Shown one piece after another: positions 3,689 to 61,765 of a stretch of 64,000 bases of DNA (its first letter is position 1; every line of letters starts with the position of its first letter). The stretch is taken from positions 1 to 64,000 of the forward strand of contig JAXGGA010002332.1 in NCBI GenBank assembly GCA_038373865.1, in the 5' to 3' direction. The notes below the pieces were generated by a model. The model was not told the origin of the DNA. It searched no databases and worked only from the letters and a program-made list of their open reading frames with translations. Origin of the DNA: Uloborus plumipes (Eukaryota; Arthropoda; Arachnida; Araneae; Uloboridae). Made by a program: the position numbers and the translations under genes.

Positions 3689-5055
3689 AGAGCAAGAATC
3701 TGAGAGAGTGTCACGCCTCTGATTCATGATGTCTCAGATTTTTTCCCAAAAATTACCAAATGTTTATTATCTTATTGAAAGACCAAATCCAGAATGTTTT
3801 GCTCTAAAGTTGAGTTGTTTAGTTTTTATGGACCCCTAAAGATGAAGGTGCGGCATCAAAAATTAAGCGGATTTTCAAGACATGGAAGTTGCTGTGAGCC
3901 AAAACTCTTACCAGGAACTGTTGAACTCCAATTTTCTTTTTGTATATGGAATATAGAAGGTTCAAACTTTACAAAATGAATGTTAAATTTGAGGTAAGTT
4001 GTTGCCGTAAGGTCAGTGAAGGCCCTCAAAACAAGGCATTTTTGACGTTTTTCAGCATTTTTGAGGTCCAAAAACAGCTTGTACATTTCAGTTGCCACGG
4101 CAAAAGTAGTGTCGTTTGAAAGGCTAGTGTAAGCACTTTAAAATAGTGTATAAACAACCGAGGAAAGTTCAACGTGCTTTTAGTTGCGTAAGGCCGAAAT
4201 ATGAAAAATGTCATATTTTACCGACAACGGTCATAACTTCCTCTGCCAACAACATATTGAAATATTTTTTTTGCCAATGTCATACTCTATTCTTTGTCTT
4301 AACAGAACAGTTGAGTCCTTTGAGGCGAAATGTTAAATTTTTTTTTTACAAAAAATGTATTTTTGCCTGTGCATTTTTTGTAAAAAAATTTTAAGCATTT
4401 CGCCTCAAAGGACTCAACTGTTCTGTAACGACAAAGAATAGAGTATGACATTGGCGAGAAAAATATTTCAATATGTTGTTGGCAGAAGAAGTTATGACCG
4501 TTTGAATATCGGTAAAATATGACATTTTTCATATTTCGGCCTTACGCAACTAAAAGCACGTTGAACTTTCCTCGGTTGTTTATACATTATTTTAAAGTGC
4601 TTACACTGGCCTTTCAACGACACTACTTTTGCCGTGGCAACTGAAATGTACAAGCTGTTTTTGGACCTCAAAAATGCTGAAAAACGTCAAAAATGCCTTG
4701 TTTAGAGGGCCTTCACTGACCTTACGGCTACAACTTACCTCAAATTTAACATTCATTTTGTAAAGTTTGAACCTTCTATATTCCATATACAAAAAGAAAA
4801 TTGGAGTTCAACAGTTCCTGGTAAGAGTTTTGGCTCACAGCAACTTCCATGTCTTGAAAATCCGCTTAATTTTTGATGCCGCACCTTCACCTTTAGGGAT
4901 CCATAAAAACTAAACAACTCAACTTTAGAAAAAAACATTCTGGATTTGGTCTTTCAATAAGATAATAAACATTTAGTAAATTTTCGGAAAAAATCTGAGT
5001 TGTCATGAATCACCTCATAATGCTAATCGTGACAGTTTCTCAGATTTTTCCTCTT
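3689..5055. repeat. Foldback (palindromic) element, arms ~650 bp
   Basis: The left arm (about 3689-4355) reappears as its reverse complement at about 4370-5055. Shared landmarks are the segments beginning GAATCTGAGAGAGTGTCAC on the left and the matching GTGACAGTTTCTCAGATT on the right. The centre is an A/T-rich turn around 4335-4390. Small ORFs in each arm are mirror images of each other and not genes. This is a non-autonomous DNA element or hairpin MITE; I see no clear target duplication. Confidence 0.8.
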
Positions 5056-7698: not shown

Positions 7699-9117
7699 CA
7701 CTGCTCGACATTGAAAATGCAACACCAAGAAGGAGTGGTCAGACATTCATGCAAATTTTACCGTAGACGCACGTCACTGAGTTATGCAAATGATATGAAA
7801 TGCGCAGCTCTCCGACGCACGTGAAGTAAGCTATAAGAGAATGAAGTTGAAAAGTGGGCTATGTTCATGTTGGTTTTTCTGCCAGACTAATTATCGGAGA
7901 AATTTGGTTTTTGTCTCGAAGGATACGTGTGATAGGAGGAAATGCCACGCCGTCCTCAACGAAGACACTTCCAGCATATAGACGACTTTACAAAGGGTAT
8001 GGTGATCGGACTGAGAAGGGGAGGTTGGTCCATACGTCAAATTGCAGCTGATACCCACATGGATGCAAGCACTGTGCATCGGCTGTGTCGGAGATGGTTG
8101 GAAAGAGGAAATGTAGCCACATTGAGGGGTGCAGGTGCAGCCAGAGTGACGTCAGACCGCTTGGATCGACGGATTCACCGACAAGCTGTGGCGGACCCGC
8201 AAGTTACTTGTACGTCGATTCTGCAGCACGTGCAAGGTACCCTGGATGTTCCTGTGTCGACCAGAACCATTTCCCGTCGACTGGTTGCACGTGGCCTGCA
8301 ATCACGGCGCCCGCTAAGAAGACTGCCATTGACCTCACAGCACAGACTCCAACGTTTGGAATGGTGCCGGACCAGAGCGACGTGGATGGCAGAATGGCAA
8401 ACCGTAGTGTTCTCAGATGAATCCCGCTTCTGTTTGTCCAGCGATAGTCATCGCATACGTGTGTGGCGTCGACGTGGAGAAAGATCGAATCCGGCAGTAG
8501 CTGTGGAACGCCCCACAGCGCGACAACGTGGCATAATGGTTTGGGGCGCTATTGCATACAATTCCGTATCACCTCTAGTTCGTATTCGGGGCACTATGAC
8601 GGCCCAACGATATGTAGATAATGTACTGCGGCCGGTGGCAATCCCCTACCTTCAGGGTCTGCCAAATGCAATTTTTCAACAGGATAACGCCCGGCCTCAC
8701 AGTGCTCGAATCAGCCAACATGCTATACGAGGTGTACAGATGCTTTCCTGGCCACCATACTCTCCTGACTTGTCACCAATCGAACATGTGTGGGACGTGA
8801 TTGGACGCCGTTTGCAGAACCTGCCACTGCCTCGTTCAGAGGACGAACTGTGGCAAATGGTTGAAAGGGAATGGAGTGCCATCCCTCAGGACACCATCCG
8901 CAGGCTTATTGACTCCATGCCTAGACGTGTTTCTTCGTGCATCGCTGTCCGCGGTGGTCCTACTTCTTACTGAGCCGACGCCGTCCTCGCTCTAAATTTT
9001 GCTTATTTATTTTGAAATAAATATCACTTATTGTTCCATGCTGTCTCTATCTTCTTACCAAATTTCTTCAATTTCTGACCACTCTTCTTGGTGTTGCATT
9101 TTCAATGTCGAGCAGTG
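7699..9117 (+). mobile_element. Complete Tc1-type transposon
   Basis: Inverted repeats of about 43 bp, nearly identical, begin CACTGCTCGACATTGAAAA on both sides and abut TA at 7697-7698 and 9118-9119. The 1.42 kb length and single ORF are normal for a Tc1 element. The only clear difference between the ends is one missing G in the right repeat, which suggests a young copy. A second left end occurs at 61766. Confidence 0.95.
7942..8973 (+). CDS. Tc1-type transposase, 343 aa, apparently intact
   Basis: This protein would bind the element's inverted repeats in the nucleus and catalyse cut-and-paste transposition into TA. Residues ~10-65 form a helix-turn-helix (DFTKGMVIGLRRGGWS, then IRQIAADTHMDASTVHRL). 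A second, less clear DNA-binding half follows up to ~125. The catalytic domain shows VVFSDESRF (first Asp), MVWGAI, FQQDNARPHSA (second Asp) and SPDLSPIEHVWD (Glu). Thirty-two residues separate the second Asp from the Glu, against 34 in typical Tc1 proteins. The start ATG is the first in frame before the basic MPRRPQRRHF. There are no stops or frameshifts, and an AATAAA lies at about 9016. Codon use is much more GC-rich than the surroundings. I judge it potentially active; this needs functional proof. Confidence 0.93.
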   Translation: MPRRPQRRHFQHIDDFTKGMVIGLRRGGWSIRQIAADTHMDASTVHRLCRRWLERGNVATLRGAGAARVTSDRLDRRIHRQAVADPQVTCTSILQHVQGTLDVPVSTRTISRRLVARGLQSRRPLRRLPLTSQHRLQRLEWCRTRATWMAEWQTVVFSDESRFCLSSDSHRIRVWRRRGERSNPAVAVERPTARQRGIMVWGAIAYNSVSPLVRIRGTMTAQRYVDNVLRPVAIPYLQGLPNAIFQQDNARPHSARISQHAIRGVQMLSWPPYSPDLSPIEHVWDVIGRRLQNLPLPRSEDELWQMVEREWSAIPQDTIRRLIDSMPRRVSSCIAVRGGPTSY

Positions 9118-22871: not shown

Positions 22872-22941
22872 ATGCAGGGAGAGAGGCTGTGGATCCTTCT
22901 GAAGTGCGCATTGAGCGGAGCACTCCTCGCCACCGCCCAAG
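22872..22941 (+). CDS. Discoidin gene exon 1: start codon and signal peptide
   Basis: Encodes MQGERLWILLKCALSGALLA followed by TAQ and the first base of a Gly codon. A short charged N-region (with Glu and Arg) leads into a hydrophobic core, and small residues (ATA) precede a likely cleavage site near residue 22. The donor is CAAG|GTAAGG. A possible acceptor at 22863 would give eight untranslated bases before this ATG; there is no in-frame stop in those bases, so an upstream coding start is not strictly excluded. The exon is more GC-rich than its surroundings, as are all five. The hammerhead-bearing repeat begins only about 35 bp downstream. Confidence 0.8.
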
Positions 22942-23011
22942 GTAAGGAGGTCAGCAACCGGAGGGAGCGAGTCTAACGATCAAAAGCTGGGAAACACGCA
23001 AAGAGTTACCC

Positions 23012-23090
23012 AGCTCGGTCATGACATCCTGAGACCGCGGTTTCGTCCTTATTTTGGACTCATCAGTCAGGAATAGCCAATGATCGAGCT
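23012..23090 (-). ncRNA. Type I hammerhead ribozyme, essentially complete
   Basis: Reading the minus strand: outer stem I AGCTCGATCAT, internal loop, inner stem I TCCTGA, core CTGATGA (23066-23060), stem II GTCC-AAAATAA-GGAC, core GAAA, stem III ACC-GC-GGT, cleavage triplet GTC, then TCAGGA and ATGACCGAGCT, which pair back with stem I. All conserved core bases are present, the inner stem I is a perfect 6 bp and the outer stem I has one mismatch in 11. Cleavage would fall between 23033 and 23032. Stem III is a minimal palindrome, ACCGCGGT, as in type I hammerheads thought to act as dimers. Confidence 0.88.
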
Positions 23091-23163
23091 GGTCATTGGC
23101 TGTTCCTGACTGATGAGTCCAGAATAAGGATGAAACTGCCGTCTCTGGGTGCTATGACCGAGC
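23088..23163 (+). ncRNA. Type I hammerhead ribozyme, slightly degenerate
   Basis: Core CTGATGA at 23110-23116 and GAAA at 23132-23135 flank stem II GTCC-AGAATAA-GGAT (one G-U pair). Stem III is reduced to two pairs before the GTC triplet (cleavage 23143/23144). Inner stem I has one mismatch (TCCTGA against TCTGGG) and the outer stem I keeps GGTCAT/ATGACC. Weak cleavage is possible. Confidence 0.75.
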
Positions 23164-23355
23164 CGTGGGTGTATTTGCTTCAGTTCTGCTTTAGTCCTGG
23201 CTTATGGGTGGTAACTCATTGCATATTACCCAGCTTTCGCCTTCAAACTTCGAGTTTAGCCGCACCATGGTTTGCGGACGCTCGCTGTTTAGGTAAATTC
23301 ATTTTATCTACCAGTTTGTTGGCAAGCTTGGCTACAATAAAAGGATTTTTGCCTC

Positions 23356-23436
23356 CAGCTCGGCTCATTGACTGTTCCCGACTGAGGAGTGTGGAATAAG
23401 GGCGAAACTGCAGTCATAGGATGTCATGACTGAGCT
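23356..23436 (+). ncRNA. Decayed hammerhead ribozyme motif
   Basis: Core CTGAGGA (23382-23388, allowed as CTGANGA) and GAAA (23404-23407) are kept, and stem III is the palindrome ACTGCAGT before GTC. Stem II (GTGT...GGGC) and inner stem I have several mismatches, so activity is unlikely. Confidence 0.65.
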
Positions 23437-23460
23437 GTGGGTGTATTTGCTTCAGTTTCG

Positions 23461-24423
23461 AAAATGTAGTTTTAGAACAAGTTCGGATCCAGAACTTGTT
23501 CAAGGGAGGAGCGGTTGACTCTTATTAACTACTTTTTACAATGCATTCTGGTTTGGAAATATCGATCACATTAGTTTCGGTCTTCAATTTCGAAACATTT
23601 CTGATTGAAAGCCCAAATTTCCTTCCTTCAGCATAATCATAACTCGTCTAAAATTAAGTTTTTTGAGCTTCAATGTTGAAAATTTACCATTGCCCTCCCT
23701 CGTATCCTCCCCTGTTTTAGAAACAGTTTTAAACGATTTTTTTTTTGGGGGGGGGGGGGGGGCTCCTCGGACCTCCTCCAGCAATTTTGCAAGGTTGAAA
23801 CTTTGAAACGTAATATGTTTAGCCATTTTATGAAGACAGTAGACAATGCGTTTTCCCCGAATCGTTTTTCGAAATTGAAGTTCAAAAAACGCAGTTTTGG
23901 ACGATTTTAGGGGTTGTTAGGTGCAGGAATGATTCGAGTCCGTCTTCGAAAACTTTACGAAATTGAAGCTCGATCAGCAAAAACGTAATTTTTGTCAATC
24001 TTTCATAGCTCCCGGAGGCTCACAATTGGAAAATTTTCGAAATTGAAGCCAAAATTAAAAACTTCCTTAAATGCTGTTGGCAAAACGAGTTGGTGAGAGG
24101 AGAGAAGACGGCTTCCTCCAACACTTTCCAAAGTTGTCGCTTTAGAAACAGTTTGATACGATTTTTGGTAATATTTATGAGATGAGTTTTCTCCCCTTTT
24201 AAATGATGACTGATAATAGCATAATCATCATATCATAATCATTTAAAAATATTTTCTGAACCGTTGTATCCGATTTGAAAAATATTTCTTTTAATATCGA
24301 GAGTTAAAATGCCACCCCCTGCGTGAAAAAGAGGTATTTTTCAGAGAGAAAGCCGTACATTACTCCTCCCAAGTACGCCAATGCATTTTGAAGAAATAAG
24401 CCGACCCTAGAAATGCACAATAT
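23461..24423. other. Unassigned; poly-G tract at ~23747-23762
   Basis: No gene is supported. Phrases such as TTCGAAATTGAAG recur several times between 23570 and 24060, suggesting a degenerate repeat. A run of about 15 G follows a T tract at 23738-23762. Confidence 0.4.
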
Positions 24424-24435
24424 ATGCAAAATGTT

Positions 24436-24625
24436 GAGGGGCCACGTGGGCCTAGAGGTAGAGTAATCTTCTCGTAAGCAAGTGGTCGCGGGTTCGAATT
24501 CCGCCTTACCTATGGATGCTATTTCATCTTCTCTGCACCGTAAATCTGTCCTGTGTTTGTCGGGAGGCAAAACGCATAGTACGCAGTCCTCATGTGTGTT
24601 GAAGCTGATGGCTTCTGGAAAAAAA
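24436..24625 (+). mobile_element. tRNA-derived SINE with 12-bp target duplication
   Basis: ATGCAAAATGTT is repeated exactly at 24424-24435 and 24626-24637. The body has an A-box-like GTGGGCCTAGAGGTAG, the B box GGGTTCGAATTCC (about 24488-24500) and a short A tail. These are the marks of a polymerase III SINE mobilised by LINE machinery. Confidence 0.85.
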
Positions 24626-24639
24626 ATGCAAAATGTTTA

Positions 24640-25114
24640 TTTATTAGGAGTTGCTTCTGCTTCCATTGGAGCTTTATTCTAACGATTTTTTTTTTTTTTG
24701 CAAAAAAATCAATAAAGTAGTTAACTTAAAAATCATAACATTGTTACGAAATAATCTTTACAAATTGCTGCCCGCCTTGCTGTAGCTGCTCCCCTCGCAA
24801 AAGTCACTCCAAAAAGCATTCTACTAATTTGGAATGCACACGCATAAGCCACTAAATGTATTACGCATTCACAGCTTTTTTGTATTTATTTTATTTTTTA
24901 ATTTTTTATTAAAAAATAATTTATTTTTTTTTATTTTTTATTTTGTATTTATTTTTTAAATACTAAAGGCGAATAAAAGTTGCATTGTCATCAGAGCCAC
25001 CCCCTCCCCCATAGGTGTAAGCCTTCAGAGAACTTGAGGTGTGTGCCTTTTTGAGGACCCAGTCCGACCCTGCTGCCGTATGAACGGTTACTGTGGGATC
25101 ACACAGAATGACGG
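24640..25114. other. Unassigned AT-rich sequence
   Basis: Nothing supported beyond A/T homopolymer runs. Confidence 0.4.
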
Positions 25115-25123
25115 TACAGTTGG

Positions 25124-25315
25124 CGGGGCCTGATTACTGAATAGGCCAACTAGGCCGCGGCCTAGGGTCCCCACAATTTAGGGGCCCCTACATGGCTAAA
25201 ATTGCTCTCATCAATGGCTAAATATGTTTCATCCAACGTCTAAAATTACTACTATACAGGGGGCCCCAAAAAGTATTTGACCTAGGGGCCCTTAATATTT
25301 TAATCGGGCCCGGGA
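25124..25315. mobile_element. 192-bp MITE (hAT/MULE-like) with 9-bp duplication
   Basis: TACAGTTGG occurs at 25115-25123 and 25316-25324. Inside, CGGGGCCTGATTAC and the complement of the right end, TCCCGGGCCCGATTA, are related. The interior is rich in GGGGCCCC blocks. Confidence 0.75.
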
Positions 25316-25380
25316 TACAGTTGGAAAAGGGCGCACCAAAATTGTTATCCCGGTTGGCACCAGACAACAACGATAAAAAA

Positions 25381-26195
25381 TCTGGTATGGACCCCACACT
25401 ACTTCCTTTTACGTGTAAATTTCTTAGTAGTTGCCTTAAGTGTTAAAAAAAGTGCTTGGAGTGAGCAAGGTGAGCATTCAAATATTTACTCCCCTAATCT
25501 ACCACGAAACAATGCAAAAAATATTTTACAATGGTTATTTTTCTAAATATTGCTGATTTTAAGATCATTCAGTGAATTTTTCGCAAAATATCGCCAATAG
25601 CGCCAAGTTGAACCCAAATTCAAAGAATAATTTTTTCGCCAAATTTGTCGCCAATTTGGCGATATGTCGCCAAGTTGGCGTCAAACACTTGGCGACCAAA
25701 AGCTTGGCGACATGTCGCCAAGTGGTGGCGCCAATTCATATCACTTGAGTCTGTATTGAAATTAACATTGATTTACCCCAAAAAAGGGGTAAAAGACCCC
25801 TTTAGAATCATTCGAATGCAATCACAAGGGGAGGTGCACAACTAGACCCCCCTCAGAGCCTACATACCAAGCTAGAAGTTTCTACGGCGTATAGTTTTTG
25901 AGTTATGCGAGCCACATACGCACATACATCCGCACATACACCCGCACATACATCCGCACATACATCCGCACAAACGTACATACAGACGTCACGAGAAAAC
26001 TCGTCGTAATTTACTCGGGGGTGGTCGAAATTGATTTTTCGGCTGTTTGTATGTTGTTAGGTACGTATGCACGTGCTGACAGGTCGAAAAAACTACGCGA
26101 CATTCATTCAGGGGTGAGCAAAGTCAAAATTTAGACTGAAATTTGAGTGAAATTTTTTTCGTGATCACAATACTTCCTTTACTACGTAAAAGAAA
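25381..26195 (+). mobile_element. Helitron-like element of the ACTTCCTTTTACG family
   Basis: Starts TCTGGTATGGACCCCACAC and ends in the hairpin-forming ACTTCCTTTACTACGTAAAAG shortly before AAACTAA. A 5' TC, a 3' hairpin and a CTRR-like end suggest a Helitron, though the ends also resemble each other. The interior iterates GGCGACATGTCGCCAAG words and a short CACATACATCCG array (25918-25975). Other copies are at 36366-37131 (reverse), ~32460-35225 (interrupted) and 54527-54605 (end only). Confidence 0.5.
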
Positions 26196-26229
26196 GTAAA
26201 AACTAAATCAAAGGGATATCTAATGTCGG

Positions 26230-26480
26230 ATTCGGACGACCTAAACAACAGAGCTCCTTCGCCGAGACACACAAAAAAAGGCACCTGTTTGGGACTGCAC
26301 TCAATCAAACGACACGTCCGTCAGCGGGCAGGGGCGTGAATAATCGCGGCGCCCTTATCTTATCGCCTCCCCGCAACAAGGGACATCCGTCAACCTCCCC
26401 GCGGATACGCCCCGATCTGACGCCCTTGTCCGAATATGATGTCCCGGCCTGATTTACACCAGGAATATCTGAAGGGAGAA
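26230..26480. promoter_or_regulatory. GC-rich, non-repeat intronic segment (possible cis-element)
   Basis: This stands out from AT-rich, repeat-filled intron 1. It contains two adjacent GATA-type sites in CCTTATCTTATCGCC and several CG-rich words. Function is speculation. Confidence 0.3.
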
Positions 26481-26555
26481 TATTCTTAACGCACCCTCGG
26501 AGATGGATTCATTTCCTTTAACCCCTAAAAGCAGGAGTTTTTTTTCTGGAAAATT

Positions 26556-26830
26556 GGAGTTTTTAATACGCTTTTATTAGTTTCACGTGTGGGTTTGTTT
26601 GTTCGTTTGCATATGTATGTATGTATGTAAATCTGAATAAAAGATAAAATGCACTTTCTTTGCAAATATAGAAGTAATATATTTAATGCTATTATCAATA
26701 CTACATTACATGTTTTCTAAAAGCACATTTTTTAGATTTTTTAAAGTATAATTTAAGTTATTTTAAGCAATCGCGATTGCTTTTTGCTTTCACTCGAAAG
26801 AAATAAAAGCTCCTGTGAAAACAATGGCGA
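26556..26830 (+). repeat. Dispersed repeat family Y
   Basis: Begins TTTTTAATACGCTTTTATTA and continues with GTTTGTTTGTTCG and TCTGAATAAAAGATAAAATG. Related stretches are at 37196-37312, 38274-38650 and 41640-41800. Class unknown, non-coding. Confidence 0.7.
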
Positions 26831-27009
26831 TGACAGCGCTCGTAGCTTTTGAACCTTATTAAGACATCGATTTTCGTCGTCATTTTAACGAATCAACTGC
26901 AGTCTAGTTCAATTTCTTTTTTAAAAGTTAACAAAGCCAGATTTTTCATAAAAAAACGGTTTTATTTGTGTAAAATTACATATATATTATAATGCAGGCT
27001 GAAAAAATG

Positions 27010-27590
27010 ACTATATCCTGCTCCTAAAAGAAATAACTGTGCAGACTATTTTTTGTTCATTTATTTATTTGTTTGTTTCATCTTATTGTTATAATTATTA
27101 TTGTATACATATATTTCTTTTTTGGCAGACGATTTTTTTTCTAACAAAAACTATTCATTTACGCGAACATTTTATTATTTATTTATTTTTAATTTGGCAA
27201 CAGATTTAAAATTAAATTTGATGCATTTCATTTACGAACGGTTTTTTTTTTTTTTTGATAAATTTTGTTTTGATGTGCTTTCTCTTTTTAATTCTTTTTT
27301 TTCTTAAAGCAATTAAGACATTTTCCCACGGAAGCACTATAATTGCTGCATTGTTTCAAAGGTGCGACAAAACTTTATTTATTCGTTTATTTACTTTTTA
27401 CGTATCTATTTAATCAGATGAGACAAGTATATATCATTTTTAGAAATCAGTTTTATGTGCTAAAAAGGTATGTTTGACATCATTTTTGCATTCTCAGGCC
27501 ATTAAGAGAATATTGAGATGCTAAAATGCCAATGCCGGTATACGAGAAACTAGGCTCGTTTAGTTCTTGACAGAACTTCTTGTCTTATTT
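27010..27590 (+). repeat. Dispersed repeat family X, copy 2
   Basis: Ends CTCGTTTAGTTCTTGACAG then AACTTCTTGT, as in the copies at 11355 (inverted) and 60425. Confidence 0.65.
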
Positions 27591-27711
27591 TATGAAAAAA
27601 AAATGATAAAAAGGGACGAATTTTGTTTAATAAAAATGGCCCTCCGGGCAACTGAAGATATTATACTCAGATCAATAAAAATTTTGCACACATACAATCA
27701 AGCCCGATTAA

Positions 27712-28192
27712 CCCATTTATGCCCAAGTTTTCTTTAACAATTTTTTTCAATATTTTTCTGCTTAAAACTCTTACTTGGAATGGTTTATGTACATTTTAGG
27801 TTTGAAATAGTTCGCCGTTGCCATATTTATTAAGGAATTTAACGTCCTGTTTATGGGATATTTTGCAGATATGTCAGCAAACTACGACCTTACTTTTGCA
27901 AAGCAACATGACATAAGGCACCTGTGATCCATTTTAAGCAAATCATTTTGAAATAGTTTAATTTTGTGAAACAAGTTCGCAAAAAAAACCTTACTTTCTG
28001 TGGCTACCCATGCTGGATCGTTGATTGACTGATTTGTCTGAAAATAGCTGTCAATAAATAAACTCTGATTTCCAAATAGTGGCTCTAAATGGTTTTCTCA
28101 AGACAGCTTTACTAAAATGATATGCCCATTACAGGTTTTTGTATGCAGTAACTAACAAACGTCCCGTTTTTAGGCTACTGGGCATAAATGGG
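27712..28192. mobile_element. piggyBac-like MITE, TTAA duplication
   Basis: TTAA flanks both sides (27708-27711 and 28193-28196). Inverted ends are CCCATTTATGCCCA and GGGCATAAATGGG. No transposase is present. TTAA plus ends starting CCC are typical of piggyBac. An inverted relative is at 51938. Confidence 0.85.
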
Positions 28193-28199
28193 TTAACGG

Positions 28200-29650
28200 A
28201 ATAGCCAACTTGTGCCACGAAAAAATATTCGAATAAGTGGGATATTCCATAATCCGGGATCAAAATAATGCATTAAAACGGTTCTATTGAAAATTCATCG
28301 ATATTATAATAAGCTGGCTTGACTGTGCAGTGAACGCCGCTTATCAAAATCACATTTGTTCCGAGGATATTTGATTTCATTAAGCGACTGATTTTATAAA
28401 CCGGCATCCATAAAATAACAAACAGAAAAGGTTTTAAAGTTTTCACAAAATTAAAAATAAATTAATGACTATTTTCAATATTTTACATTCAGTTAATTAA
28501 AACACAGTACGAATTTAACTTATGTGTAAAAAGCACATTTTTTAAATGACACAAGGGTTTTAAAATATTGATTTATTATATATTTGAGAAACAGAATTTG
28601 TGAAAGTAAAGATCGTTCTTAAATCTTGACGTTAAGGCATGTTTTGCTAGTGAACGATTTTCACTTAACTGTCAACCTTTGTAATTTTCTTGAAGAGAAA
28701 GAGAAATCTGGTTTTACTCCAGAAAAGCATCCCTCCTCCCTTTTTTTTTTAACATATACTCTCCAAAAACTTGGTTTTATAAAACGACGCTAAAGATTTT
28801 ATTAAGGGATGGTTATAAAATGTTTTGATATTATAATGGTTCTGTTCTTCAAGATTTGATTTTATAAAGCGGCTAATTTTATAATCCAGTGATTTATTAG
28901 TGGCGGGCACTGTACTAACATTGACATAAAGCAACTTTTCCACACTATTGGAAATTCGATTTTGAAAAAAAAAAAAAAAAGTTCTTCTCGATGGACCCTA
29001 TTGTAGACTCCTTTTATGACCCGACTGATCAGACTTCTAACTTAATATCGGAGAGCCTTAGGGGTGCTGCGATCCAAATTGGACAAGCGCGTAAAATGGG
29101 TTTTTCTTGTTCCTGTAAATGCGGCTCCTCGGCGGAATAATTAACGCAAGATGTGTCTCGTTCAGTTTTTTTTTACGGTCGGCATACGAGAGATAGCAAC
29201 AAAAAGTAAAAGAGTCCATAAATCTTCACTACGGGGCTATCAAACTTTGGCGTCTCAAAAGGGTTTCTTTGATTTCAGAAATGATTGATATTTAACAACA
29301 AAGATATTTTCGTTTCGATCGAATCGTTTTGTTAAATACTTCGGCTTCTAAATATCGTTCAGAAATCTGGAAGAGCATCGAAAAAGCGTTTTTTTTTTTT
29401 TTTGTTTTTTTTTCTCTTTCTTTTCTTTTCTTTTTTCTTTCTTTTTTTTTTTTTTTGAAGAAAAGATGCAGAAAAGTGAGAGGTTCCAACAGATATTTAA
29501 TTATAATTTTTTCGAGCATTTTTTAATCCTCCTATCAAAAGAATGATGCAACAGACGGATTGATGCAGTTTTTGTACGCCCATATGGATAGAATTCATTC
29601 AAATATTTTTTTTAGAGCTACGTTGTGTTAATAAACTTAAACAGCTAGTA
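28200..29650. other. Unassigned; pyrimidine microsatellite at 29388-29456
   Basis: Contains a long T/TTTC tract. A stretch near 28990-29230 is less AT-rich and non-repetitive, including CTCCTCGGCGGAATAATTAA. No gene is supported. Confidence 0.4.
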
Positions 29651-30017
29651 CACTGTAAAAATGAATGTTGTTTTTACAGTATAATACAGCTAATTCTATA
29701 GCAATAAACTGCAAAAATCGCTCATTTTACAATAATAAGCTGTCAAATTGCTCATTTCACAGTAATAAACTAGTTTTACAGCTTATTACCGTGCATTTTA
29801 GTTTTAAACTGGAAGCTCTGCTGCCGGCATTCTACTGTTGTTTTTACAGTATAATACAGTTAAATTTTACGGCAATAAACTGTGAAATTTCTTACTTTAC
29901 ATTAAGAAACTGTAAAATTGCAAGTTTTACAGTTCAATATCGTGCATTTTACAGCTTTAAATTGGAACCTCGGCTGCCAGTATTATACTGTAAAAACAAC
30001 AGTTCATTTTTTGCAGT
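29651..30017. mobile_element. ACTGTAAAA-type foldback element, copy 3
   Basis: Starts CACTGTAAAAATGAATGTTG and ends with the inverted TTCATTTTTTGCAGT. The internal inverted iterations match the other copies. Confidence 0.8.
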
Positions 30018-32455
30018 CTAAAGAATAAAAAAGTTCTTGTTTACGAACGAGTAGAGCGCAGAAAACGCTCCGTAAACTTCGATTTTGACTCATGATTTCA
30101 ATCCTAAAATAATATTTCGTATGGTATGTGTGGATGGTATATTATATGTTCGACATCGTATTCTCTAAAATCCAGTGCGGAATGGAACTTTCTGATCCTA
30201 AGCGGCGGACCTGAAGCTGCTTATTGCACCTAACGAGCAATGTTCAGCTTTATTTTGATTTAAAAAAGAGTGTTAGATCTTTTAGAAGTCAATGCGGGAA
30301 ACAGAATTAAGTTTTCACGCTACAAATTTGTTAACAGATTAAAGCCTGACGTCCCCCCCCCCCCCCAAGATATTTTGTATACTGGTTACAAACAGTGTTT
30401 AATGGACAGGAAAAATAATAAAAAAAATATTACTTAAAAAATAATTTTTTTATTAAGGAAAGAAAAATCTTCCCTTAAAAGTTACGAGAGACCCCAGAGG
30501 GTAAATACTTTTTTTATTAAATTTTTTTCCTGCCTACGATATAATATTTAAAAAGACATTTTATAAGAAGAAATAAAACAGCAATGAACATAAACTGGGA
30601 AGCTGGGAATCACTTTGAAAACTTAGCTTTTCTTCTTGAGATTGTGAACGATGTCATTTTTGATAAAGATCATATTAAAACGGCTACAGAACACACTTTA
30701 TAATGGTTATGTACTGCACTATGTTAATAACGAATTGAGACAATACCAAGCTACTCATTGAACACTAGTATTTGGTTGAAATGTTCATTTTGGGAAAATT
30801 CAGGCCCTTTTTTGGACCGTCCCTAAAAATGAACGCTAGGCATTACTGGGTTAATTTTGTGTACACGAAACAAACACGTTGTTAAAAAAATTATTCAAGA
30901 TTTTCAATAAGCCAAGATTTTTTTTACGCGCGGAAAGGGGAGGGGTTAATCAATATTTGGAAGAGGGTTCGCAGAAGTCTGGAGTTTGGCAAAATATATA
31001 AGATTGAAGGTCTAATCTCAGGAATAACCCACGGTTCGTTGACAGGTGTTTTTTATTTTTTTTTCAAATACGCCATCCCTTTGTACATATTCAACAATGT
31101 TAAATGTAACACATTACGGGATGACGTAAGTGAAAATTTTAAAAATAGCCCACAAGGGTAAACATTCAATTTTAGCATGTACAGGAGAAAAATGGCTAAT
31201 AATAAATTAATATATATGTATATAAGTAAAGTACTTAGATGCAAGGTAATGGAAAAAAATATAAAGATAAATATTTAAAAATATATAATAAAATAAAATA
31301 AATAACAATAAAAAAGAGGAAAGAAAAAAAAAGAGCATCTCTATTAATATCAAAGCAGAAGGCGGGTATGTCCTTCTTTCCTTCTTTCTGTCAGCGCCAA
31401 TACCGTTCGGTCGATTTGTTATTCGAAAGCTTGAAATTTTCTGCTAAAAATGATGTCAGTTTGAAGTTTCTACGAGCATCAGAAGAGCTGCAATAATTGT
31501 TTTTAGAATCCTGGAAATTCAAGGCTTACCTTAGGTAAAGCAAGCCAAACGATTCTAAAATGGTGAAGCTCGAGAGTAAAATTTGTTTGAAAATAAAGAT
31601 GAAATGAAATATTTTATCAATGGAAATCAACTTTTCATGTTGTTACCATGGTTACGTTTTAATTTCGTTTATTTGGTTCTTTCTTTTCCCTTAATATTTT
31701 AAAAATGTATTTGTTTTTGTAGCAATCCAAGCCTTATTAAAGTTAGTCAAATGAAATATATTAAAACCGTGATGAGATAGCACCTGTCAATCAAATGAGA
31801 AATCGAATCCTTTCCTTAAAATAGGTAGAGAAGGAAGAAATTGACGCGTACTATTTTTGTGAGTTTAGAGACATTTTGGCGATCTGACAAGTTGTATAGA
31901 AGAGGGAATAATTCTTTAACCAAATGAGGTCAAAAAAGAGACAAAATGATAGTAAACCATTCTAAATGTATCGTCTGCAAAACATATTTCTCTTCATTAT
32001 TTATTTGTCTCAATATAAATTGCAGTAAATGGCTTGAGTGAACGAATTTAGCTTTTAATTTATCGTTTGCTGGTTGATGTTTGTCGATGTTTATTGTTTT
32101 TATTCTCATTGTGAAGAATAATACACGAAATTTCTACGACTAATACTTAATATGTTTAGGATCAGTTGAGTTTAAAAGAAAAAAGTGCTCCAAATATAAG
32201 TTTGCAATGTGATTATTTAGACAATATTAAAAGTTAATTTTTGGCGACTTTTTTACAATTTGGCATTCAATTCTCTTTCAGTACATTTACTTGTATCGTA
32301 TTGCGATATTTCAACGTTCTTTCTAAAGTGTGTCATTTCTGAAAATGTATGTGTTTTATATTTGAAGTTAGGAAAGAAAACTTTCTTCTTCTTTTAAACT
32401 TTGGTAAGATTTCTGTTGGTTTCTGTGAGCAACAAAATTGTTCTTATTTTCTCTT
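30018..32455. other. Unassigned intronic sequence
   Basis: No coding or repeat boundary is supported. A poly-C tract lies at about 30352-30366. Confidence 0.35.
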
Positions 32456-32459
32456 TTGG

Positions 32460-35225
32460 CTTATTTCTGTGCACCTCCCTCTGAGGTTGCTTTCGAATGT
32501 CCCCAAGGGGGTGTTTTACCCCTTTTATAGGGTAAATCAGTGTTAATTTCAATGCAAACAAAAGTGATATGAATTGGCGCGACCACTTGGCGACATATCG
32601 CCAAGCTTTTGGTCGGCAAGTGTTGACGCCAATTTGGGGGCATATCGCCAAGTTGGCGACAAATTTGGCAAAAAAATTATTATTATTTTTTTAATTTGGA
32701 TTCAATTTGGCGCAATTGACGACATTTTGCGAAAAATCCACTGAATGATGTTAAAATCGGCGATTTTTAGGAGATTAATAATTGTAAAACTTTTTTTGCA
32801 TTGTTTTCTGGCAAACTACGGATGTAAGTGTCTGAATTGTTATATTGCTTACTCCAAGTACTATTTTAGCACTTTGGGCATCTACTAACCAGGAAAGTAC
32901 TAAACTTAAGTAATAATGAAAAAAGTTTAAAATGGTATCATTCGAAAGAGCATATTGAAACATGTTTTTAACCCAAAGATCAAGTGCCCTCGTCCCCTCG
33001 TTTTCGAGATAAGGGGTCTTAAAATCGGCTAAAAAGTAGCCAAATTTGAAGACTTGGCAGGAAATTGAAGCTATCTCCCGATTCCCCCCGCTTGCTTGAC
33101 ATCGCATCATTTCCATGTTTGGTCATTCGCAAAGAAAGTAAAACGTTGTTTACGTTAACCCCTTACTTGTATGGGCTAAAATAAAGAATGCTGATCAAGA
33201 CGATGATGTGGAAAGCAGAGGGCTTTATCCACAGAAGCGAAAATTTTACAAAGAAGTTAAAGTTTTATCTTTCTACGATTAATAACAATACATTTTAGAA
33301 TTTTAGTTATTTTAAGTTTTTTTTACTGAACAAAGTTGTATGTGTTAATTATTATAACTTTAGAAATATATTGCACGTGTTTCTAAATGGATAATTAGAT
33401 AATTAAATAAGTATGAAAAGCAGCTAATATGAGCTCATGTACAAAAAATGAAATAAATAATCTTTGGGGTAGAAATTAAATTGTCATGGATTATGGTATC
33501 AGTTCTTATTGGAAAAAAAATCGATGCAAGAAGTTTCACTATCTGCCAACTCTTAGCAAAAACATTTATTTTTTTTTAATTGAAATCGAGAAAAAATAAA
33601 TTACAATTTTAAAAAGAAAACGAATTAGTAAATATCAATAGCTGCAAAATTATCTCCATGTCGGAAATTACATCAAGGGTAGAGGGAAATAATTATTTCC
33701 ATTCTTAAAATATACTAATAGAGTTGACATACATTGTAAAAACTCCTGCCGTTCAAACAAAATTGGTCACTGTAGTGAAAAGTCTCTGTAACGTAAATGT
33801 AAAACATATTGCATGTTAATTTCGTACTGTTTAAAAACACTGCAATAACTTTTACTAGTTCTGCTGTACGTTCAACGGGTAGGAAAAGACTATACAAGTT
33901 TTTGCTTACTTTTCTGTAAAAGTAGAAAATAGGTTTAAAAAAATCATGAAAGAAGGCCTGATGCACTGAAAAAAAAAAAAAAACGCTCAAAACAATTGAG
34001 TCAAAAAGCACAACGAAAAAAATAATTAAATACACAGAGAAATTTAAAACAGGAAAGTCGGGTTTTGAGCTGCGGAAACTGTGTACCTGTCAGTCTGTCT
34101 ATTGGTCAGTTTTTCTCTCCCCCCCCCCCGCAATAACTGTTGAGTGCATAGTCCGATTCGTTTTTTTTTTTTTTTTTTTTTTAAATTGAAAGATCTCAGT
34201 GAGGACAATACACTCCCATATTCGACTTTTTGATTTAAATTATTTTTCATTCAATTTCGAATTTCCGATTTTTTCCCCTGTCCTCACTTATAACTTTTGA
34301 GGGAACAAGTTCGATTCGAGCGAACACTTTTTTTTTTCGAAATATCTCAGAGAAAACACCTCATTCCTGTTTGATTTTTTTATTTGAACACATTTTTATT
34401 AAATTTTGAGCATTTTTTCTTTTTTGAAAGACCATTCTTACGTACCCAGTCATGCAATCGATAAAAATGTTTAGGAGAACTCACTTTGAGTTATAGGGGA
34501 CCCATCAAAAGAAAAGTGGTTAGAAAAGGTTTATATTTGCAATTTTTACAATTAAAAACCCTAAATATACCCCCCCCCATACTACAAAATTGGGGGGGGT
34601 ATATTTAGGGTTTATACAACACTTCTTGTTATACTTACACCAAATCCCCCATACTACAAAATTGTACGAACACTTAAAAAAAAAAAAAAAAACAGGAGGT
34701 TCAGTTGTCACCTTCTGGGCCCCTTAAACAAGGGACCTGCTTTAATCGCAAATAGTAAGATAAATTTTAATTTTGATGTGTTGTTTAAAATTATTTTTCC
34801 TCTTTAAAAAAGCTTTCTGCTTTTCATGTCATAGGCTTGATAGTAGCTTTTTGCTTTAACTCGCACAGGTAAAGTAAAAGATTATTGTAAAGCCGTCTTT
34901 CAAAAGCTTTCAAGATGGCCAAAAATTTGAATCAGGTTTCCCGTTGGGCGCAAATAATGTAATCGCACAGCAAATTCCAGTTTCATTACAACTCGCTAAA
35001 ATTAGCGATTTTTCAAAAAAAAAAAAAAAAAAAATTAGCTGACTTTAGGACCTTATATTTCGATAACGGGGGCGCGAGGGCAAAAACGCGTGCGTCCAGA
35101 AACATGTTTTACCATGCTCTTTCGATTGGTACTCATTAAAAAAAATTCATTATTCCATGATCGAGTACTTTCCTGGTAAGAAATTTACACGTAAAAGGAA
35201 GTAATGTGGGGATCCATACCAAATT
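32460..35225 (-). mobile_element. Interrupted ACTTCCTTTTACG-family element with inverted arms
   Basis: About 32460-32880 matches the interior of the copy at 36366-37131 (same orientation) and 35175-35225 matches its right end. Between them, about 32888-33050 and 35035-35178 are inverted relative to each other (ACCAGGAAAGTAC against GTACTTTCCTGGT; GAAAGAGCAT against ATGCTCTTTC), suggesting a foldback insertion of about 2.3 kb. Confidence 0.5.
34557..34611. repeat. Perfect short palindrome with C9/G8 tracts
   Basis: ACCCTAAATATACCCCCCCC and its exact complement flank a 15-base loop that starts CATACTAC. The same loop word recurs at about 34650. Confidence 0.85.
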
Positions 35226-35328
35226 TTTATATCATACTTTGAAGGAATAATAGTTAATTTATAACAAAAATAGAGTATTTTTTCTGCTATATCAATTTTT
35301 TACAACTTATTTTTTTATTTTATACCAC

Positions 35329-35355
35329 GGGCAAAGCCGTGCGGGTACCGCTAGC
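35329..35355 (+). repeat. Helitron-like 3' hairpin end 65 bp before exon 2
   Basis: CCACGGGCAAAGCCGTGCGG forms a hairpin and is followed by GTACCGCTAGC. The extent of the element upstream is unclear. Confidence 0.4.
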
Positions 35356-35420
35356 AGGTTAATAAAATAACAGAAAAAATAAAATAATAAAAAAGATAAA
35401 AACAAATATTCTCTTGGCAG

Positions 35421-35614
35421 GTTGCAGCAGCCCGCTGGGCCTGATGACGGGCAGCGTGCAGGACTGGCAGATCAGCGTGAGCTCCTCGGACAGCGCGGAC
35501 CCGGGCTGCCACATGCGCTACGGCCGCGTCTACCAGCCGCCGGGCCGCGCCTGGTGCGCGGGCCGCAGAGCCGCCATGGAGTGGATGCAGGTCGACCTGG
35601 GGGTCGCCGCCACG
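35421..35614 (+). CDS. Discoidin gene exon 2: N-terminal part of F5/8C domain 1
   Basis: The acceptor TCTCTTGGCAG|G completes the Gly codon from exon 1, and the donor is ACG|GTGAGC, ending in phase 0. It encodes residues 24-88. The opening GCSSPLGLMTGSVQDWQISV, the S-S-S turn and MEWMQVDLGVAAT are the standard first half of a discoidin domain: a first Cys, then the WxQVDLG strand. Two extra cysteines (PGCHM and AWCAG) may form an internal disulfide. GC content is far above that of the surrounding intron. An ACTGTAAAA-type element starts only 37 bp after the donor. Confidence 0.88.
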
Positions 35615-37312: not shown

Positions 37313-37454
37313 ATCTCCCCAAAAACAACAGTGTTGTAAAAAAATCCCCCGCCAAGAAAACCTTAAATACTCAGCCTTAAAAAGTTATGATATCGAGTTT
37401 TCCCGCCAAGTTTGTGCCAAACTACAACTAACCTGTATGTATAGTTCGGTTTGG

Positions 37455-37975
37455 GGTCAAAATGTCGCGGCCGAAATGTCGCGGGCCAAAATGTCGCGGC
37501 CAAAATGTCGCCGAGCCAAAATGTCGCGGGCTAAAATGTCGCGGGCAAAAATGTCGCCGGTCCAAAATGTCGCCAAGCCAAAATGTCGCGGGCTAAAATG
37601 TCGCGGGCCAAAATGTCGCCGGTCCAAAATGTCGCAGAGCCAAAATGTCGCGGGCTAAAATGTCGCGGGCAAAAATGTCGCCGGTCCAAAATGTCGCCGA
37701 GGCAAAATGTCGCGGGCTAAAATGTCGCGGGCCAAAATGTCGCCGGTCAAAAATGCCGCCGAGCCAAAATGTCGCGGGCTAAAATGTCGCGGACCAAAAT
37801 GTCGCCGGTCCAAAATGTCGCCTGCCCAAAATGTCGCGTGGTCAAAATGTCGCCGGGCCAGAATGTCGCCGGTCAAAAATGTCGCCGGTCGAAAATGTCG
37901 CCGGGCCAAAATGTCGCCGGTCCAGAATATCACCGGTCAAAAATGTCACCGGTCCAAAATAACGCCGGTCCAAAA
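37455..37975 (+). repeat. AAAATGTCGC satellite arm, left
   Basis: Units of 15-16 bp such as AAAATGTCGCCGGTCC, AAAATGTCGCCGAGCC and AAAATGTCGCGGGCT repeat in a four-unit super-period of about 62 bp. The array gives long but meaningless open frames. Confidence 0.95.
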
Positions 37976-37999
37976 TATATCAGTTCCAAAATGACATAA

Positions 38000-39921: not shown

Positions 39922-40497
39922 TCTGACGACATTTGAACTGGCGACATTTTGGCCGGCGACATTTTTGACCGGCGACATTTTGGACCTGCGACATTTTGGA
40001 CCGGCGACATTTTTGACCGGCGACATTTTTGACCGGCGACATTTTAGACCGGCGACATTTTAGCCCGCGACATTTTGGCTCGGCGACATTTTTGACCGGC
40101 GACATTTTAGCCCGCGACATTTTGGCTCGGCGACATTTTGGACCGGCGACATTTTGGCCCGCGACATTTTAGCCCGCGACCTTTTGGCTCGGCGACATTT
40201 TGGACCGGCGACATTTTGGCCCGCGACATTTTTGCCCGCGACATTTTGGCTCGGCGACATTTTGGACCGGCGACATTTTTGCCCGCGACATTTTAGCCCG
40301 CGACATTTTGGCTCGGCGATATTTTGGACCGGCGACATTTTGGCCCGCGACATTTTAGCCCGCGACATTTTGGCTCGGCGACATTTTGGACCGGCGACAT
40401 TTTTGCCCGCGACATTTTAGCCCGCGACATTTTGGCTCGGCGACATTTTGGCCGCGACATTTTGGCCCGCGACATTTCGGCCGCGACATTTTGGGCG
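39922..40497 (-). repeat. AAAATGTCGC satellite arm, right (inverted)
   Basis: The same unit on the opposite strand (GGCGACATTTTGGACC and variants). It shows the same super-period as the left arm. Confidence 0.95.
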
Positions 40498-44303: not shown

Positions 44304-46210
44304 CCCTGATAGCACAATGTGTCACGGATAAGTCACAGTGACGTCACTGCGAGTCACAAGCGTCACAGTCACACCGTGACTCAATTGTGACGACGCACAA
44401 AAGTCACATTGTGACTCGTTTGCGACATTTGCGTGTGACTTCACTACAACGTCGCTGTGACAGCTGAATTGTGACCGGTCACAATGTAATGTTGTGGAGA
44501 CGTCACATTGTGACCTTAATGTGAATTTTCATTAAAATATTTTTTTACCGATTGAAGACCGAATTAATAATACCGAATTAATAATTTTACGTTACAAAAT
44601 CAGTCAAAAAAAATTTTTAAGAGCCTCAATCACTTTCTAACAGACAGCAGTAACAAAAGAGACCAAGTGACAACCACTTGCGAATGTCAATCCGTGATGA
44701 CGTCAAAATTGCAGTGACGGCCCTTACAACGTCAATGCAATTTTGGACAATTTGTGACTATTCCGTGACAACATGACACAGTCACGGAAACCGTTGTCGT
44801 GTAATTGTGTATTTGATGCGACGTTTTGATAGTTTGTATCGGTTATGCGGCTTCTCATCATTGTCACTATCAAATTTCTTTACTTACTTGTGACCTTTAA
44901 ATGACGTCGCTGTAAAGCCCTGTAGTGATTTACAGCAGATGCGAAAACGGGGTATGATTATGAATAGCACAGTGACAAAAATAAGACGCTTTTGTGACTC
45001 GGGTACGTCACAAGTAAACTTACGAATGAAAATTCGCGGCGACATCACAAGTGCGATGTTGCAGTGACGACGCCTGGTAGCACGAAGGCAGTCGATGTCA
45101 CTTAGTGCTGGTTTTGCGCCTTATTTGTGACTTTTAAATGAAATTCTTCAAAGCATTATTGCGATTTAAAAAAGTCGCAACAAACGGGGATGTGACTACG
45201 AATTGCACAGTGACCAAAATAAGACGCTTTTGTGATACCTCACAAGCGAAGTCGCAAAGATGTGGCAGCAACTTACGAGTGTCAGCTCGCGGAGAAGTCA
45301 CAAGGCGTAGAAGTCCTCAGGTGCCGTCACTGTGAAGTCGCACTGTGACGCTGCCGCGACTTCACGCGTACGTCACTGACTGGTCGCATCAGTCGCTGTG
45401 ACTGTGATGTGAGGTCGCTAAACCGTCACTGTGAGACCTAGGTTGCAATTGGGTCGTCAGGCGTTGTCACTGTAAAGTCGCATTGTGAAGTCGCCGTTGC
45501 TGACATTCGTAAGTAACTTGGTTGCGACTTCACTTGTGACGCATGCGAGGGTCACAAAAGCATTGCATTAGCAACGCCTGAAGACGCAAGTGGGACTTTT
45601 CTCTGACGTCGTGGTAAAGTCGCATTGTGACTTAAAACTGTCACATCGACGTGGATGTGACTCACTTTGTGACCACAATGTGACCTTCAGCAGCTCTTTA
45701 CTTTTTGAGTTTCCTCTTGTAACTCTCGTCTAGTATAGTGGTTAGAATTCTTGGCTTGCATCCAGACGACCCGGGTTCGATTCCAGGCGTGGGACAATGG
45801 GTTTCGCAGCGTAACGGTTGGCGGAAAGTATGTTGATTCAATCCAGGTTCTTATATCAGTGATTTCTGATGTCAGTAAAAGACTCTTTTATTTTTTCAAA
45901 ATTAAAAAAAATATTTTATGACAGGTCGTCGGGCGCCGTCACTGTGAAGTCGCATTGTGACGCCGCCGCAACTTCACACACAGGTCACTGACTGGTCACA
46001 TCGGTCGCTGTGACTGCGATGTGAGGTCGCCAAACCGTCACTAGGTGACCTCGGTTGCAATTGGGTCGTCATGCGCCGTCACTGTAAAGTCGCATTGTGA
46101 CGTCACCGCGGTCGGACATTCGTAAGTCGCGGTGACGTGGTTGCGACTGCGCTTGTGACGAGCGTCACGGGTCACAAAAGCGTCACATTTTGGTCACTGT
46201 GCTATCAGGG
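44304..46210. mobile_element. GTGAC/GTCAC-saturated element inserted in the palindrome arm
   Basis: Inverted ends CCCTGATAGCACA and TGTGCTATCAGGG enclose 1.9 kb dominated by GTGAC and GTCAC in both orientations. TT flanks both sides. The other palindrome arm retains the uninterrupted sequence TCACTTGGCAAGG near 46605-46615, which proves the insertion point. Two ~200-bp segments (about 45308-45515 and 45925-46130) are direct duplicates. Confidence 0.88.
45724..45905 (+). mobile_element. tRNA-derived SINE inside the GTGAC element
   Basis: CGTCTAGTATAGTGGTTAG (A box) and GGGTTCGATTCC (B box, about 45774-45785) closely resemble Glu/Asp tRNAs. The acceptor strands do not pair, so it is a SINE head and not a functional tRNA. 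Flanks CTCTTTACTTTTTGAG and CTCTTTTATTTTTTCA are an imperfect target duplication. Confidence 0.7.
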
Positions 46211-58420: not shown

Positions 58421-58515
58421 GTGAGTCATCGCCATAGAACACAGATTGAGATATTATAACATAAGTAGAGACTTTCGCATTGTAACAATACAGATTACAA
58501 TATACCCAGATTATA

Positions 58516-59156
58516 CAGGTTGTACACTCCTATCGTGGACCAATAGCTAATTTCTAAACCGTTAGAGATAAGCATATAGTTCATTTAGGAAAAAATCTCC
58601 AAATTACGAAAGGAATTTTGGGTCTATTCAATGTTTTTCAAAAAATCAAATACGAAATTTAAATTTTTATGCAGCCCCCCAGTCCTATCAATCCTATTTA
58701 GTAAAACCTTCTTGTCACTGTAACGTTTAAAACTAAAAAAAAAATCACTGTTCTACCACAAAAATTGACCGAGTTATGACGTTTTGAAAAATCAAGATTT
58801 TGCATTATTTCATGACGTCATCGGTGGAGCGATCTCTCGATGACGTCATAAAATAATGCAAAATCTTGATTTTTCAAAACGTCATAACTCGGTCAATTTT
58901 TGTGGTAGAACAGTGATTTTTTTTAAGTTTTAAACGTTACAGTGTCAAGAATGTTTTACTAAACAGGATTGATAGGACTGGGGGGCTGTATAAAAATTTA
59001 AATTTAGTAACTCTTTCAAAATTCGATTTTTTGAAAAACATTTCATAGACCCAAAATTCCTTTCGTAATTTGGAGATTTTTTCCTAAATGAACTACATGC
59101 TTATCTCTAACGGTTTAGAAATTAGCTATTGGTCCACGATAGGAGTGGACACCCTG
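58516..59156. mobile_element. Hairpin MITE (CAGGGTGTCCACTCC family), copy 1
   Basis: TA at 58514-58515 and 59157-59158. The two ~310-bp arms are close inverted copies around ATGACGTCATCGG...ATGACGTCAT. The left end is mutated to CAGGTTGTACACTCC. Confidence 0.9.
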
Positions 59157-59183
59157 TATTAGTCGTATTGACAGTGCTCATTT

Positions 59184-60958: not shown

Positions 60959-60994
60959 TAGTTAAATAATGAACATTCATTTGAGGTTAATATA

Positions 60995-61645
60995 CAGGGT
61001 GTCCACTCCAATCGTGGACCAATAGCTAATTTCTAAACCGTTAGAGATAAGCATATAGTTTATTTAGGAAAAAATCTCCAAATTACGAAAGAAATTTTGG
61101 GTCTATTCAATGTTTTTCAAAAAATCAAATTTTGAAAGAGTTACGAAATTTAAATTTTTATACAGCCCCCCAGTCCTATCAATCATATTTAGTAAAAAAT
61201 TCTTGACACTGTAACGTTTAAAACTAAAAAAAAATCACTCTTCTACCACAAAAATTGACCGAGTTATGACGTTTTGAAAAATCAAGATTTTGAATGATTT
61301 CGCATACGGTCCCTTAAGCGATCGCTCGATGACGTTATGAAATAATGCAAAATCTTGATTTTTCAAAACGTCATAACTCGGTCAATTTTTGTGGTAGAAG
61401 AGTGATTTTTTTTTAGTTTTAAACGTTACAGTGTCAAGAATTTTTTACTGAATATGATTGATAGGACGGGGGGGCTGTATAAAAATTTAAATTTCGTAAC
61501 TCTTTCAAAATTTGATTTTTTGAAAAACACTGAATAGACCCAAAATTCCTTTCGTAATTTGGAGATTTTTTCCCAAATAAACTATATGCTTATCTCTAAC
61601 GGTTTAGAAATTAGCTATTGGTCCACGATTGGAGTGGACACCCTG
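60995..61645. mobile_element. Hairpin MITE (CAGGGTGTCCACTCC family), copy 2
   Basis: TA at 60993-60994 and 61646-61647; perfect CAGGGTGTCCACTCC ends. The arms match those of copy 1 but the central turn differs. Confidence 0.92.
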
Positions 61646-61765
61646 TATAATAATAATGGTGTAAGAAAAATTTACAGCAGTGATTCGAGGACACGTTTAC
61701 TATTTAATGACTTATGTTTGCGTGGATTGAAAACAAATCGGATTCTTACCAAAATATCCGATATA

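Follow-up and report, generated by a model that had tools for sequence, protein, structure and literature searches.

The closest described relatives of the locus reported here are the non-LTR retrozymes of metazoans, which resemble it in their type I hammerhead, their period, a G+C content below 50% and the lack of a coding match (PMC7229834). They repeat with a period of ~170–400 nt, and their G+C content is put below 50% in the text and below 45% in the legend to Figure 1C of the same paper (PMC7229834). A multimer or a re-ligated circle has been proposed as the template for their copying (PMC7229834), and metazoan retrozyme RNAs are described as more than 70% double-stranded (PMC4918200). 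A stem III of only 2 bp is called similar to that of invertebrate hammerheads, and most invertebrate retrozymes are said to cleave efficiently; an axolotl hammerhead with a 2-bp stem III was 22% cleaved in 1 h as a monomer and cleaved better as a dimer (PMC7229834). For arthropods, the tick Argas is an example in print, named in a figure legend of PMC4918200. A survey of decapod repeats mentions Penelope elements, while the terms 'hammerhead' and 'retrozyme' are absent from its available text (PMC10454600), and a search for literature on retrozymes in shrimp returned none. For hammerhead ribozymes in crustaceans, PMC7229834 was the one paper that appeared relevant from its title.

Penelope elements carry an ORF for a reverse transcriptase and a GIY-YIG endonuclease. 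They are themselves bearers of type I hammerheads (PMC11167929). They have been named as the likely movers of metazoan retrozymes, whose repeats are described as having no telltale motif (PMC7761336), and metazoan retrozymes may rely on them according to PMC8969392. The inverted repeats of Penelope insertions are mostly arranged head to head, and palindromes at the junction were read by the authors as a trace of self-priming (PMC3846280). For the single Penelope enzyme assayed in vitro, the template had to contain the first 172 nt of that enzyme's ORF (PMC11167929). An inverted unit within a retrozyme is not mentioned in the available text of PMC7229834, PMC7761336, PMC4918200 or PMC8969392.

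The locus described here lies within a 64-kb stretch of DNA from the spider Uloborus plumipes, the whole of which is referred to as the window. Its features, in window coordinates, are the following.

22872–22941, plus strand: coding part of host exon 1, with its ATG at 22872; signal-peptide-like by eye
22942–35420, plus strand: host intron 1, which contains the element; GT at 22942, AG ending at 35420, phase 1
22983–23457, no strand assigned: the whole retrozyme-like insertion, 475 bp, made up of an inverted partial unit, a full direct unit and a partial direct unit, as drawn from the repeat boundaries
22983–23092, minus strand: inverted partial unit, comprising a hammerhead and part of the monomer (inverted repeats I1 and I4, alignments)
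22998–23178, no strand assigned: near-continuous hairpin with arms at 22998–23083 and 23093–23178 and a 9-nt spacer
23010–23092, minus strand: predicted intact type I hammerhead including outer stem I (RF00163 match and anatomy), predicted cleavage position 23033/23032
23087–23163, plus strand: plus hammerhead 1, RF00163 23.7 bits, below the gathering score; matches the strict descriptor; predicted cleavage position 23143/23144
23093–23364, plus strand: direct unit 1, 272 nt start to start (direct repeat D1, spacing 272)
23356–23437, plus strand: plus hammerhead 2, RF00163 20.1 bits, below the gathering score; fails the strict descriptor; predicted cleavage position 23415/23416
23365–23457, plus strand: direct unit 2, truncated (direct repeat D1)
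35421–35614, plus strand: host exon 2, start of an F5/8-type C (discoidin) domain; splice sites from sequence

A sequence-only reading of this DNA had proposed a retrozyme-like repeat with a head-to-head arrangement, and self-comparison finds exactly such an inverted pair (E 2e-46, the palindrome being aligned from either side and so counted twice) together with a direct pair (E 2e-22). In the repeat search the direct copies are 82% identical over 93 nt and the inverted copy 81% over 86 nt, and the arms of the hairpin pair at 77 of 86 positions with G-U allowed. The spacing of 272 nt given by that reading is precise, being the distance between the two predicted plus-strand cleavage positions, 23143/23144 and 23415/23416. 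Type I hammerheads are thereby found in tandem within the retrozyme range of ~170–400 nt, the tandem pair scoring below the Rfam threshold; the above-threshold hammerhead sits in the inverted unit, not in the tandem pair. Tandem units from dimers upward are shared with the metazoan retrozymes of the available accounts. The present locus differs in that a complete direct unit is followed by a truncated one and preceded by an inverted partial unit, and in that its copies are degraded. At 47.8%, the G+C content of the insertion compares with 36% in the window (where CpG observed/expected is 0.99, i.e., without depletion), and is under the 50% of the PMC7229834 text and above the 45% of its Figure 1C legend. 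A single long ORF crosses the unit, and its translation matches no Pfam family at E 0.1.

About 42 nt of the direct unit are missing from the inverted unit; in the direct unit, TGGGT flanks that stretch on both edges. Inverted and direct units do not meet at a cleavage site; both begin on the 5′ side of stem I, with their 5′ ends at most 9 nt from the same unit position. The repeat is unbroken across every cleavage site, which implies that the template would have been an uncleaved multimer or a re-ligated circle. A search of the flanking windows gave no convincing target-site duplication. Two exact 6-nt flank matches, together AGGGAGCG at 22962 versus AGGGAGGAGCG at 23503, fall well outside both ends of the element and were not accepted. 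Directly to the right of the element, at 23475–23501, there is a short palindrome, GAACAAGTTCGGATCCAGAACTTGTTC. No further copies of the element were found in the 64-kb window.

Over a common block of 76 nt, identity is 84% between the minus copy and plus 1, 79% between the minus copy and plus 2, and 78% between plus 1 and plus 2. The three copies have 5, 6 and 10 unique changes in this block, respectively, with one further site differing in all three, and equal numbers of unique changes are not rejected (chi-square p 0.37). These counts are what a single insertion of similar units and their later decay would give, without amounting to proof. Expressed as the differences unique to each copy, divergence since insertion is roughly 7–13% per copy.

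The minus-strand motif is matched by Rfam model RF00163 at 23072–23027 with 39.6 bits (E 1.6e-6, 64-kb window), above the gathering score of 34 bits, which bears out the type I hammerhead proposed for this strand. The conserved core (CUGAUGA, GAAA and GUC) is complete and the anatomy can be drawn as had been claimed. Stem II has 4 bp (GUCC/GGAC), inner stem I has 6 bp with zero mismatches, and an internal loop of 7/4 nt separates it from an outer stem I of 8+4 bp. Loop II has 7 nt, and between it and the stem I internal loop the loop 1–loop 2 tertiary contacts of metazoan retrozymes may form. With its core bases, three stems and a score over the curated threshold, the minus copy belongs to RF00163 and is a predicted ribozyme with a putative GUC cleavage site at 23033/23032. 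The motif anatomy leads to the same cleavage positions that had been named earlier, 23033/23032 on the minus strand and 23143/23144 on the plus strand. The count of three hammerheads stands in part: the minus copy is above the Rfam cut-off and both plus copies are below it (23.7 and 20.1 bits).

Plus hammerhead 1 has every core base in place, its departures being a stem II G-U and a stem I U-U, and in plus hammerhead 2 stems I and II are broken. When the entire window was searched with Rfam up to E 2, plus 1 appeared at E 0.28 and plus 2 was absent. The strict descriptor (the core, four stem II pairs, two stem III pairs and at least five of the six inner stem I pairs, G-U allowed) matches twice in the window, at the minus copy and plus 1, and never in 200 dinucleotide shuffles of it. 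Model R1, in the window, finds just its own three training copies; the 107.9 bits it gives to the minus copy are a score for one of its training sequences. The claim of a palindromic stem III holds for the minus copy (ACCGCGGT) and the second plus copy (ACTGCAGT) and does not extend to the first plus copy, whose ACTGCCGT is non-palindromic. The minus copy has two options for stem III, either 2 bp with a tetraloop or an 8-bp stem III in a dimer, and the dimer action put forward in the sequence-only reading is one of these two possibilities. The former is as in axolotl Amex2 (Amex1 has one bp), and the satellite hammerheads of newt and axolotl likewise have a palindromic stem III, through which they could act as dimers (PMC7229834). 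Rfam microRNA models also match over the element, far under their gathering scores; these matches are explained by the hairpin and were rejected. In viral contigs, a pattern close to the element's hammerhead has no matches and a broader hammerhead pattern has 44 loci with one match each. Comparison of the element with these loci by blastn (E up to 1) aligned 27–30 nt in 3 of the 44, inside the hammerhead, and did not find the 272-nt monomer, from which it follows that their hammerheads do not share the unit.

The best explanation, at a probability of roughly 0.78, is that a metazoan non-LTR retrozyme inserted here long ago; such retrozymes are short, non-autonomous retroelements bearing type I hammerheads, and a retrozyme life cycle is inferred for this one. 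The period of 272 nt and the G+C content of 47.8% are within the metazoan ranges of the PMC7229834 text and count in favor of this reading. Against it stand a G+C content above that of the figure legend, the lack of a convincing target-site duplication, the absence of a further copy from the window and a predicted minimum fold of the isolated minus hammerhead other than the ribozyme fold. A multimeric or circular retrozyme RNA would have been reverse-transcribed through the joined cleavage site, giving tandem 272-nt units. The 5′ end of the cDNA would then have folded back or been primed a second time, so that a partial unit in inverted orientation came to face direct unit 1 head to head. The product would have inserted just inside intron 1 of a gene with a discoidin domain, and the copies would since have diverged, the plus hammerheads becoming weakened or broken and the minus one staying intact in sequence, antisense to the gene.

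The position in the first intron, tens of bases past exon 1, was correctly given by the sequence-only reading: the intron is of the GT…AG type and the element begins 41 nt after exon 1. The reading frame of exon 1 continues into exon 2 across the intron, and later host exons lie near 51.7, 54.7 and 58.3 kb. The exon 2 piece alone has no Pfam match, and the pieces near 51.7 and 54.7 kb score 22.7 and 27.9 bits against PF00754, below its cut-off of 28.2; homologues of the spliced host protein carry PF00754. This protein has 11 database matches, the six named ones being from a springtail (48%), Penaeus (56%) and Eriocheir (four rows, 63–65%). That the element is transcribed as part of the host intron does not apply to its only intact ribozyme, which lies on the minus strand, opposite to the plus-strand gene; the host pre-mRNA therefore holds the complement of the ribozyme and not the ribozyme itself.

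Elsewhere in the window other elements were seen. A long near-perfect inverted repeat, noted by eye, spans ~4250–4490, and a match to Rfam MIR8007 at 4272–4454 (74.1 bits, far under the cut-off of 195) is put down to this hairpin. Two related foldback elements, MITE-like in look, lie at 58510–59159 and 60987–61653; one of them has 315-nt arms that are 97% complementary with 37 nt between them, and the direct stretches common to both are 92–96% identical. An open frame of 345 aa at 7936–8970 encodes a Tc1-like transposase with 97% identity to an unnamed protein on a 1.5-kb contig. Its other matches, among the best 120 of 3919, are mostly at 65–83% and chiefly from pseudoscorpions, with one spider row. 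Tc1 transposons may move between species. Two minisatellites of the CAAAATGTCGCC type, at 37454–37993 and 39940–40496, are in opposite orientation ~2 kb apart. A fragment on the minus strand at 2452–2940 weakly matches DUF7869 (24.7 and 24.5 bits against a cut-off of 26), and a tRNA-Ala-like sequence at 45724–45795 was called by ARAGORN and scores 25.9 bits in Rfam, below the cut-off of 29.

The inverted neighbor has consequences for the predicted activity of the ribozyme. Expressed as nearest-neighbor energies, which include neither tertiary contacts nor co-transcriptional order and have no active hammerhead as a yardstick, the cost of imposing the ribozyme fold is 8.4 kcal/mol for the isolated minus hammerhead or unit, and 62.9, 67.4 and 67.4 kcal/mol for three minus transcripts with both arms. 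For plus 1 the same cost is 11.3 kcal/mol in isolation; it rises to 91.5 once the inverted arm is included, and to 45.9 in a longer pre-mRNA that offers this arm other partners. The minimum fold of the isolated minus hammerhead is not the hammerhead fold, being lower by the same 8.4 kcal/mol, and in none of the three single hammerheads (folding z −4.69 for minus, +0.12 for plus 1 and −2.03 for plus 2) is the hammerhead fold the minimum. The inverted copy can pair with the ribozyme on either strand and is therefore predicted to compete with the ribozyme fold, a point absent from the sequence-only reading. The isolated minus motif may well cut. By these energies the inverted neighbor should block the intact ribozyme, and the ribozyme at this locus is most likely inert today.

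The 272-nt circle folds with a z of −0.48, is equalled by 26 of 100 shuffles and is 66% paired. The high self-pairing that is typical of retrozymes, without defining them, is not found in it, and a fold no better than that of shuffles, unlike those of published retrozyme RNAs, counts against the retrozyme reading. Decay of the copies may explain the poor fold of the circle, and a fresh copy might differ. A circular RNA from the locus today is unlikely, judging from the sequence, as it is the weaker plus copies that delimit the 272-nt monomer, and one of these two does not match the strict descriptor. Unique changes within the stems or conserved core number 0 of 5 in the minus copy and 9 of 16 in the plus copies (Fisher p 0.045, leaving out the site that differs in all three and taking one plus 2 change, at the variable core position 7, as lying outside). 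This pattern could hint at selection or constraint on the minus copy, a copy that was chosen for being intact. In an alignment of the three sequences, a number too small to read covariation from, 83.8% of cells pair as compared with 28–43% when slid by 1–3 columns, a value reached equally in 397 of 500 shuffles. One stem III pair changes on both sides, from C-G to U-A, which among three sequences is equalled in 189 of 500 shuffles.

The inverted unit may tell which machinery copied the element. Penelope insertions such as Pen2a of Adineta vaga have the same two direct repeats with a shorter adjacent inverted repeat and a palindromic junction (PMC3846280), and this layout, direct and inverted repeats head to head around a palindrome, is the one found here. 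Pen2a inserts typically carry a 9-bp duplication, and the search gave none at this locus; short target-site duplications are usual for Penelope, not universal, and one Pen2 copy has a microhomology junction and, as here, no duplication (PMC3846280). A reverse transcriptase and GIY-YIG endonuclease ORF, as carried by Penelope elements, was not found in the element, whose unit is too short for one. Penelope hammerheads are described as minimal, without helix III or loop-loop contacts (PMC7761336), and the element's hammerhead is not minimal. The inverted unit could tentatively be taken as the signature of a Penelope reverse transcriptase copying a non-autonomous ribozyme circle, in which case insertion would pair the hammerhead with its own complement and leave the ribozyme self-silenced at its new locus; the odds are somewhat against this pairing of origin and outcome. 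The single locus, the lack of a target-site duplication and the ORF requirement of the Penelope enzyme, for a stretch not known to be present in this element, all count against it.

LINE twin priming also yields a head-to-head 5′ inversion. A LINE-type insertion of a retrozyme multimer, with its 5′ end inverted in this way, would thus give the orientation seen, as an alternative for the copying step whose likelihood overlaps with that of the retrozyme insertion itself. It would accord with the retrozyme repeats of Nematostella, which have 15-bp LINE-like duplications (PMC4918200), but no such duplication was found at the flanks here. The 5′ ends at the junction, at most 9 nt apart in the unit, would moreover be expected in an estimated ~7% of cases from independent priming, and LINE copying is regarded as unlikely. 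Still more improbable is that the locus is the remnant of a Penelope-like element itself, with two direct and one inverted pseudo-LTR and its internal ORF lost. Such a remnant would account for the typical Penelope layout (PMC3846280) and for the type I hammerheads, known from Penelope elements (PMC11167929). It is opposed by the presence of helix III, with 2 bp or more, and of a stem I internal loop, as compared with the minimal Penelope hammerheads of PMC7761336, by the long ORF that has no Pfam match and by a period too short for any ORF.

A ribozyme adopted by the host, cutting antisense or sense RNA to regulate its gene, would explain why the minus copy is intact and its siblings decayed, and conserved intronic hammerheads of amniotes are mentioned in PMC7761336. 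The minus copy is antisense to the gene, however, and its fold should meet competition from the adjoining inverted copy; one intact in three is also weak evidence, with a Fisher test chosen post hoc, and host adoption is accordingly given very little credence. A chance resemblance to a hammerhead within a simple inverted repeat can practically be dismissed, for although the window holds other long inverted repeats, the Rfam E value over 64 kb and the empty shuffles speak against it.

Hammerhead retroelements are known in many animals and the locus itself is thus ordinary, a real case, probably old and largely inactive, of a known kind. What it offers is a structural test of which enzyme moves metazoan retrozymes. 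Recurrence of head-to-head inverted units at one and the same position of the unit within a retrozyme family would be direct support for the Penelope hypothesis, and the inverted layout would then be a motif revealing the mobilizing element, of the sort said to be absent in the available text of PMC7761336. The insertion also shows how an intact ribozyme can be buried in its own hairpin, and its layout would be a feature worth surveying across complete genomes.
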